Source: Candidatus Lachnoclostridium avicola (GTDB lineage: Bacteria > Bacillota > Clostridia > Lachnospirales > Lachnospiraceae). Taken from it: a stretch of DNA of 64,000 nt. Positions 10,338 through 12,454 of the stretch are shown in pieces. The first letter of the stretch is position 1. Every line of letters begins with the position of its first letter. A program made the position numbers and the translations under genes. The notes beneath the pieces are model-generated. The model was given only the letters and a program-made list of their open reading frames with translations. It was not told where the DNA came from and ran no database searches. The stretch covers positions 1 through 64,000 of the forward strand of contig DXFM01000048.1 in assembly GCA_019114465.1 (NCBI GenBank), in the 5' to 3' direction.

Positions 10338-11992
10338 GAGAGAACGTGTACGACGCGGTGGTGGTGGGCGGAGGGCCGGCGGGCCTGACCGCCGCCATCT
10401 ATCTGGCCAGGGCCCGCTACCGGGTTCTGGTGGTGGAGAAGGAAAAGTTTGGAGGCCAGATTACTATCACCTCTCAGGTGGTAAACTATCCGGGGGTGGA
10501 ATCCGCCGGAGGAGAGGAGCTGACGGCGGTGATGCGCCGCCAGGCCATGAATTTCGGGGCGGAATTTCTCATGGCGGAGGTAGAAGGCCTGGAGCTGGAT
10601 GGAGACGTGAAGACGGTGAAAACCTCCGCAGGCCCCCTTCAGACTTTCGGGGTTCTGCTGGCCACAGGGGCTCATCCCAGAAAGGTGGGATTTCAGGGAG
10701 AGGAGGAGTTCAGGGGCCGGGGGGTGGCTTACTGCGCCACCTGCGACGGAGAGTTTTTTACGGGAAAGGACGTGTATGTGGTGGGAGGCGGCTTCGCGGC
10801 GGCGGAGGAGAGCGTATTTCTCACCCGCTACGCGAAAACTGTGACCATTCTCATGGTGACGGAGGATTTCACCTGTGCCCAGGCGGTGGCGGATCCCGCC
10901 AGGAATCATGAAAAGATCCGCATCTTAACCAGGACGACGGTGAAGGAAGCCGGGGGAGACCATACCCTGCGCTATGTGGTCTGCGAAAACCTGGACACAG
11001 GGGAGGAGCAGATCTTTCGCGCTCCGGAAGGAGAGGGTCTGGGCCTGTTTGTGTTTGCAGGCTATGAGCCGGCGACGGAACTGGTGAAAGACCTGGGCGT
11101 GCTGGACGAACAGGGCTATGTAAAGACGGACACCGATCAGAAAACAGCGGTGGAGGGACTGTACGCGGCCGGGGACGTGTGCGTGAAAAACCTCCGCCAG
11201 GTGGTGACGGCAGTGGGGGATGGCGCCCGGGCGGCCACAGAGCTGGAAAAATACGCCAGAGCCATGCAGGAGAAGACGGGGATTCATCCCAGACAGCCGG
11301 TGACCAGGCTGGAAAAATCCGGGGAAACAGGCAGCCGGGATGGAGAGGCTGCCGCTGAAAAGAGAGGCAGTTTTATCACGGAGGAGATGAAAGGACAGCT
11401 GGAAGGCGTGTTTGGACGGATGGAGCGTCCGCTGAGGCTGAAGCTCCGTCTGGACGAGCGTCCCGTTTCCTCGGAGCTGAAGGCCTTTATGGAGGAATTG
11501 GCGGCCCTGACGGAGAAGCTTTCCGTCTCCATGGAAGAGAATGAGAAGGACGGTTCGGCCGGCGGGCCGCGTCCCCGGGTGTCTGTCTGCCTGGAGGACG
11601 GGACGGACACCGGTCTGGCCTTTTACGGCGCGCCGGGGGGCCATGAATTTAATTCCTTTATCATCGGCCTTTACAACGCCGCCGGGCCGGGACAGCCGCT
11701 GGACCTCCGGGTTTTAGAGCGGATCCGCAGAATCAGCGGGCCGGTAAAAATGCAGATCCTGGTCTCCCTCACCTGCACCATGTGCCCGGAGCTGGTGATG
11801 GCAGCCCAGCGCATGGCGGCGGAGAATCCCCGGATCAGCGCCTGTGTTTACGACCTGAATCATTTCCCGGAGCTGAGGGAGAAGTACCAGGTCATGAGCG
11901 TGCCGTGTCTGGTGATCAATGAAAACCAGATCTATTTTGGCAAAAAGAATGTGGGGCAGCTGCTGGAGATTCTGGAGAAACCGGTTGTTTAA
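10334..11992 (+). CDS. Thioredoxin-reductase-like flavoprotein with C-terminal glutaredoxin/AhpF-type domain (AhpC reductase)
   Basis: This 552-residue protein is a fusion. Residues 1-310 are a thioredoxin reductase: FAD site GGGPAGLTAAIYLARA, redox pair C134-ATC-137, NAD(P)H site VVGGGFAAAEESVF, and GLYAAGDVCVKNLRQV. A charged linker follows. Residues 355-552 look like the tandem thioredoxin folds normally found at the N-terminus of AhpF, with a redox motif CTMC at residues 481-484 and a YQVMSVPCLVIN strand. It probably passes electrons from NAD(P)H to AhpC. The domain order is the reverse of classical AhpF. Coupling to ahpC through an ATGA overlap supports the partnership. Confidence 0.9.
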   Translation: MRENVYDAVVVGGGPAGLTAAIYLARARYRVLVVEKEKFGGQITITSQVVNYPGVESAGGEELTAVMRRQAMNFGAEFLMAEVEGLELDGDVKTVKTSAGPLQTFGVLLATGAHPRKVGFQGEEEFRGRGVAYCATCDGEFFTGKDVYVVGGGFAAAEESVFLTRYAKTVTILMVTEDFTCAQAVADPARNHEKIRILTRTTVKEAGGDHTLRYVVCENLDTGEEQIFRAPEGEGLGLFVFAGYEPATELVKDLGVLDEQGYVKTDTDQKTAVEGLYAAGDVCVKNLRQVVTAVGDGARAATELEKYARAMQEKTGIHPRQPVTRLEKSGETGSRDGEAAAEKRGSFITEEMKGQLEGVFGRMERPLRLKLRLDERPVSSELKAFMEELAALTEKLSVSMEENEKDGSAGGPRPRVSVCLEDGTDTGLAFYGAPGGHEFNSFIIGLYNAAGPGQPLDLRVLERIRRISGPVKMQILVSLTCTMCPELVMAAQRMAAENPRISACVYDLNHFPELREKYQVMSVPCLVINENQIYFGKKNVGQLLEILEKPVV

Positions 11993-12013
11993 ACGAAGCC
12001 GTTTTGCTATAAT
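11985..12013 (+). promoter_or_regulatory. Promoter of the DtxR-type regulator
   Basis: TTGTTT, a 17-bp spacer and a perfect TATAAT. The -35 box overlaps the end of the AhpF-like gene. Confidence 0.55.
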
Positions 12014-12056
12014 AGGCGTGGAAGTATAGAGTATTTTACAGAAAGGGTGAAACGGT

Positions 12057-12443
12057 ACGCAAAGATTAGGAAAATCACTGGAAGACTACCTGGAAGCCAT
12101 CTACTGCTTGCAAATGGAGATGGGCCAGGTACATTCGATTGATGTGGCAGAATATCTGAAAGTGTCCAAGCCCAGCGTTTCCGGCGCTATGAAGGCGCTT
12201 CGGGAAAAGAAGCTGGTGATCAAAGAGGAGGACGGAGTCCTTCACCTCACCGCAGAGGGAGAAGAGCTGGCAAAAGCCGTGTATGAAAAGCATGTGTTTT
12301 TCCAGCAGATGTTCATGCAGCTGGGGGTGGACGAACAGGTGGCGGGACGGGATGCCTGCCTGGTGGAGCACGCAGTCAGCGACGAAGTATTTGAAAAACT
12401 GAAGGAAAAATACGATCATGTGCTGACAGGCGGCAAGGAATAA
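12057..12443 (+). CDS. DtxR/MntR-family metal-dependent regulator (no canonical start codon)
   Basis: The frame encodes a DtxR-type N-terminal helix-turn-helix (QRLGKSLEDYLEAIYCLQ, then DVAEYLKVSKPSVSGAMKALREKKLV) and the helical dimerisation/metal region (KHVFFQQMFMQLGVDEQ, DACLVEHAVSDEVFEKL). The SH3 domain is absent, as in short clostridial members. Homology must begin near 12057, but that codon is ACG; the frame is open only from 12051 and has no ATG, GTG or TTG before 12108. GAAAGGG lies 9 nt before the ACG. The ORF track start (TTG 12108) would delete the first helix. Translation from ACG gives 128 residues. It may be a weak start, a point mutation or a sequencing error. Confidence 0.72.
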   Translation, partial: TQRLGKSLEDYLEAIYCLQMEMGQVHSIDVAEYLKVSKPSVSGAMKALREKKLVIKEEDGVLHLTAEGEELAKAVYEKHVFFQQMFMQLGVDEQVAGRDACLVEHAVSDEVFEKLKEKYDHVLTGGKE

Positions 12444-12454
12444 AAAGTTGTATG

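Follow-up and report, generated by a model that had tools for sequence, protein, structure and literature searches.

The window, a stretch of 64,000 nucleotides from Candidatus Lachnoclostridium avicola (contig DXFM01000048.1, positions 1 to 64,000 of the forward strand), carries a gene for a DtxR/MntR-type metalloregulator that lacks a canonical start codon. Its frame runs from 12060 to 12443 and ends with a TAA stop at 12444–12446; ATG, GTG and TTG are all absent from the frame before the homology begins, and the first of them to appear is TTG 12108. A sequence-only reading had described the missing start and placed the onset of homology at the codon after ACG 12057, and both the letters and the Pfam matches agree. 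From 12048, the in-frame order is TGA, AAC GGT ACG (12057) CAA AGA TTA GGA AAA TCA CTG GAA GAC TAC, and the codons after ACG read into RLGKSLEDYLE. The GAAAGGG (12041–12047) that this reading had located 9 nt before ACG 12057 and the stop at 12048 are both present as described, and an alignment with MntR confirms that the next possible start, TTG 12108, would cost the protein helix 1. The features of the locus are the following:

11985–11990, + strand: −35 element TTGTTT (GTTGTTTAA invariant in 7/7 orthologues), with a 17-nt spacer to TATAAT
12004–12013, + strand: extended −10 element TTGCTATAAT (TGn-TATAAT); TTTTG[CT]TATAAT invariant in 7/7
12020–12056, + strand: predicted short mRNA leader, its putative transcription start ~7 nt past the −10 element
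12040–12047, + strand: Shine–Dalgarno (SD) region AGAAAGGG, identical in 5/7 orthologues, with purine-rich variants in the other two
12048–12050, + strand: in-frame TGA that closes the frame upstream, present in 6/7 orthologues and lost in L019
12057–12059, + strand: ACG, putative start codon, invariant in 7/7 species
12060–12446, + strand: coding region of the DtxR/MntR-type metalloregulator, 127 amino acids after the start (Pfam PF01325 and PF02742; PDB MntR/DtxR)
12063–12074, + strand: AGA TTA GGA AAA, four codons unchanged at the DNA level in seven species (codon comparison)
12078–12080, + strand: CTG (TTG in L017), rival start (codon comparison)
12108–12110, + strand: TTG, first canonical start codon, rejected; CTG in L017, L018 and L019

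The encoded protein, which begins QRLGKSLEDYLEAIYCLQ when numbered from the codon following ACG, matches PF01325 (Fe_dep_repress, the N-terminal winged-helix domain) from residue 3 with 43.5 bits against a cut-off of 26, and PF02742 (Fe_dep_repr_C, the metal-binding and dimerisation domain) over residues 64–120 with 48.3 bits against a cut-off of 27. MntR and DtxR are its closest solved structures in a PDB comparison. The NCBIfam MntR equivalog cut-offs are missed (79.1 versus 153 bits, and 60.8 versus 138 bits), and by its sequence the regulator is a relative outside the named equivalog. B. subtilis and E. coli MntR and C. diphtheriae DtxR are homologous to it in sequence, and the metal ligands align: residues D9, E12, H78, C100, E103 and H104 correspond to D8, E11, H77, E99, E102 and H103 of MntR, which we take to be the MntR ligands. 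The cysteine at the place of MntR E99 is found in DtxR as well, and the metal site is mixed, with an MntR-like Asp and a DtxR-like Cys. The regulator is shorter than DtxR, without room for the DtxR C-terminal domain, and also differs from MntR and DtxR in its ACG start. The gene product is predicted to function as a metal-dependent DtxR/MntR-type repressor, and this prediction is part of the explanation favoured below.

The −35 element scores 3/6 and was hence missed by the promoter scan. By duplex energy the SD is moderately strong, at −12.6 to −15.2 kcal/mol compared with −8.0 to −14.3 kcal/mol for five neighbouring genes of the window; these energies use an assumed standard 16S tail sequence, and the 16S 3′ end was not found in the genus genomes. 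A stable structure was not found in the start region by folding (z = +0.8). In L019, no canonical start was found in place of the lost TGA 12048.

A search of nine genomes of the genus yielded seven orthologues including that of the window. The other six, with 84–92% protein identity to the window's regulator, come from Candidatus Lachnoclostridium stercorigallinarum, L. stercoripullorum, L. pullistercoris, Lachnoclostridium sp. An14, and two uncultured Lachnospiraceae MAGs, while the two remaining genomes contain paralogues only (~44% identity). The ACG is in place in all seven orthologues, together with the SD region, the −35 element, the 17-nt spacer and the extended −10 element, and every ACG case comes from this one genus. 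Pairwise dS among the seven ranges from 0.72 to saturation (>2) with a dN of 0.04–0.12, pN is ~0.04–0.11 versus a pS of 0.46–0.79 between orthologue pairs, and variation is seen at 29 of 39 fourfold-degenerate sites and in 70 of 87 amino-acid-fixed codons. These comparisons indicate that the regulator is under strong purifying selection; a dS of 0.7 to >2, together with a pN far below pS, implies a functional gene and an old ACG. As judged from the alignments, the ACG is old and retained, and is neither a sequencing error nor a fresh mutation.

Neutral invariance is 26% per site, which makes three fixed bases a ~2% event, and the codon-level invariance of the ACG is by itself only moderately improbable. 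The stronger argument is that every species lacks any other codon that could serve as a start before the conserved coding segment. From TCA 12075 onward, the codons differ synonymously among the orthologues, and the stretch at 12063–12074 is the sole run of at least four invariant codons in the gene (the chance of any such run is 0.037). The slightly longer AGATTAGGAAAATC at 12063–12076 is DNA-invariant in the seven species and contains a short GATT/AATC inverted repeat; it is possible that it represents an overlapping operator or a downstream translation element. A role of GATTAGGAAAATC as a repeated operator was rejected: every one of the seven gene-carrying genomes has a single exact copy, located within the gene itself, and copies with one mismatch are scattered.

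Homologues in other genera indicate where coding begins. They encode LG[KR]SLEDYLE behind ATG, GTG or TTG, with mostly synonymous differences: L030 reads ATG ATA TTA GGT AAA TCG, L038 ATG CTT GGA AAA TCC, L045 GTG ACA TTG GGA AAG TCA, and L034 TTG AAG TTA GGC AGA TCA. Within LGKS, the differences are exclusively synonymous save one K/R exchange. Because LGKS is coding behind ordinary starts in these genera, the segment is protein and the start has to lie upstream of 12066; the comparison thus shows that the coding region extends upstream at least to TTA 12066. The in-frame candidates before 12066 are AAC, GGT, ACG, CAA and AGA, and only ACG is one base from ATG and at the right distance from the SD, which leaves ACG as the sole near-cognate start available; this holds for each of the seven species. 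In a tree of 48 sequences, the seven ACG orthologues form one supported clade (100/96) whose nearest neighbours have ATG, and the deeper forks are weak. Weak starts recur in the regulator family, with TTG in L010 and L034 and GTG in L045.

The infC gene of the same genome (L095:1486–1491) served as a positive control. Its apparent start is ATT, in the order ATT AGC GAT TTA ATG ATT AAC; the ATT is conserved in family and order relatives, and the codons just before it vary, in line with the known AUU-type start of IF3. The same comparison is therefore able to find a genuine non-AUG start. An in-frame ACG two codons before the ATT was rejected as the infC start, since it is not conserved and the ATT is. 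An unusual initiator tRNA was not found among the 26 loci scanned, which comprised only ordinary tRNAs, including one Met-CAU and one Thr-CGT.

From these comparisons, we infer initiation at ACG 12057, and several other accounts of the start must be weighed against it. Translation could begin at CTG 12078 (TTG in L017) to give M-E-D-Y-L-E, with AGGA at 12068–12071, 6 nt upstream, as the SD and the invariant 12063–12074 as leader. CTG and TTG initiate more strongly than ACG, Met occupies the aligned position in B. subtilis MntR, and the lack of synonymous change in 12063–12074 is by itself compatible with a leader. This account is nevertheless improbable, as four other genera conserve LGKS as coding sequence behind an ATG, GTG or TTG start, and neither the ACG nor the upstream SD region would then have cause to be conserved. 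A start at GTG 12047 in another frame, followed by a +1 frameshift near 12059 into the regulator frame, would fit the presence of this GTG in 6/7 species and the near-invariance of the GGTACG block; it is very improbable, given that L019 has GGG and no start in that frame, that the GTG overlaps the SD instead of following one, and that a recognisable slippery site was not found. Initiation at TTG 12108, the first canonical start and the one used by the mechanical ORF call, or at ATG 12114, would produce a truncated protein, and seems even more improbable than a frameshift. Three species have CTG in place of the TTG, ATG 12114 is absent in L017–L019, the preceding codons vary almost only synonymously, and along with helix 1 the protein would lose the predicted counterparts of the MntR ligands D8 and E11; initiation at 12108, envisaged earlier, is thus contradicted by a TTG that is not conserved and by upstream codons that evolve as coding sequence. 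The sequence-only reading had offered a weak start, a sequence error and a natural knock-down, of which the weak start stands, as a long-retained feature. ACG is one T-to-C difference from ATG, as a sequencing error, a recent loss-of-start mutation or a pseudogene would have it, but such an origin is hardly credible: the ACG is common to seven species, which include a named strain, and purifying selection is strong. The seven genomes in agreement, An14 and the MAGs, stem from several assembly projects, the presence of the ACG throughout the clade rules out a recent knock-down, and the suggestion that an assembly error hides an ATG at 12057 is answered indirectly by the same ACG in related genomes.

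A further alternative accepts the ACG as the start and disputes only its purpose, attributing its conservation to neutrality, or to an operator or RNA element that overlaps it, rather than to selection for low output. The invariant block at 12063–12076 that follows the ACG fits this alternative, as does the invariance of 26% of the fourfold sites. C-to-T is, however, a frequent mutation that would give ATG, and across these species the neighbouring hydrolase gene has changed its start, with ATG in some and GTG in others, indicating that starts drift here, yet the ACG stayed. On balance, this alternative is doubtful, though it deserves serious attention.

The explanation favoured here, which we consider quite probable, is that the gene product is a working DtxR/MntR-type repressor, that initiator fMet-tRNA begins its translation at ACG 12057, and that the weak start has been retained as useful. 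ACG initiates poorly in E. coli and other bacteria. At this locus, the adequate, well-spaced SD would hold the 30S subunit and allow the A–C mismatch at the middle position to pass at a low rate, IF3 would discriminate against the ACG, and the combination of a good promoter and a weak start would produce few repressor molecules. The start would be retained since a low repressor level is useful, possibly in an IF3- or growth-dependent manner; it is the retention of the codon that suggests selection for low output. By analogy with other weak starts, the ACG probably acts as an inherent brake on how much protein is made. The chances seem evenly divided for the wider proposal that ACG, mismatched to the initiator anticodon at its middle position, has been the sole start of a chromosomal gene through the divergence of the genus, as an adaptive metalloregulator brake that is perhaps sensitive to IF3 or growth.

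To our knowledge, natural bacterial starts (AUG, GUG, UUG, CUG, AUU, AUA, AUC) all have a middle U. A natural bacterial ACG start was not found in open-licence PMC text, where the matches were organelle, viral, eukaryotic, engineered or unrelated; work on IF3 kinetics includes ACG solely as a model triplet (PMC8266586). The regulator resembles infC (IF3), whose AUU/AUA start is likewise a long-conserved non-AUG start and limits output, but infC has a third-position mismatch and autoregulation via IF3, whereas the regulator has a second-position mismatch and a metalloregulator product. Conserved weak starts are also found in staphylococcal ccpN (AUA), cvfC1 (AUU) and infC (AUA), and these native starts gave ~10–30% of the AUG reporter (PMC13009471). 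Staphylococcus CcpN is comparable in that it represses transcription and its gene has a non-canonical start that is conserved, behind a good SD (PMC13009471), although ccpN and cvfC1 have third-position mismatches, an extended SD, and products of other protein families. The weaker GTG start of lacI, which lowers repressor, raises basal operon expression and has a fitness effect (PMC11445065), is comparable as a weak repressor start, but GTG is a canonical alternative start. Chloroplast ndhD, psbL and rpl2 have ACG at the start position and bacterial-type ribosomes; their ACG is converted to AUG by C-to-U RNA editing, which is not observed in bacteria (PMC9845219). With a start other than ATG, GTG or TTG in 7/7 clade orthologues, the regulator matches the conserved non-canonical start kind of infC and ccpN. 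Its ACG lacks their middle U, a feature that does not define the kind, and the second-position mismatch makes it a variant rather than a plain member.

If the favoured explanation is true, the conserved ACG shows that second-position mismatches are usable, and can be kept, as regulatory starts. Gene finders restricted to ATG, GTG and TTG would truncate or miss the regulator across the clade, and other genomes could be screened for a conserved non-start signature of the same kind.

The surroundings of the gene vary among the orthologues, and the promoter and SD region are conserved despite the different upstream genes. The upstream gene is TrxR-like (trxR) in the window and L015, and an ORF that is presumably ThiC-like, named by resemblance only, in L017 and L018; downstream, a hydrolase and a 4Fe–4S/flavodoxin-like gene are found in 5/6 other species. 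In the window, the TAA stop of the TrxR-like gene overlaps the −35 region of the regulator (11985–11992). The An14 orthologue ends differently, which suggests that in the window the upstream gene became attached to the regulator promoter. One same-genus genome carries a divergent paralogue, L013 (G002:C45:25105–25452), with one in-frame TAA, which may be a pseudogene or have a short C-terminus. In L031 and L058, a canonical start was not found nearby, and CTG GAG AAT TTA GGA AAA follows AAAGGGGG. In L058, which is from another genus (G191; minus strand, ~1537–1560), the CTG at 1539–1537 after AAAGGGGG is the best start candidate, and an out-of-frame ATG overlaps it. The L058 homologue is flanked on one side by the end of a FeoB-like transporter plus a small FeoC-like gene, and on the other by an MntP-like gene, all named by resemblance.
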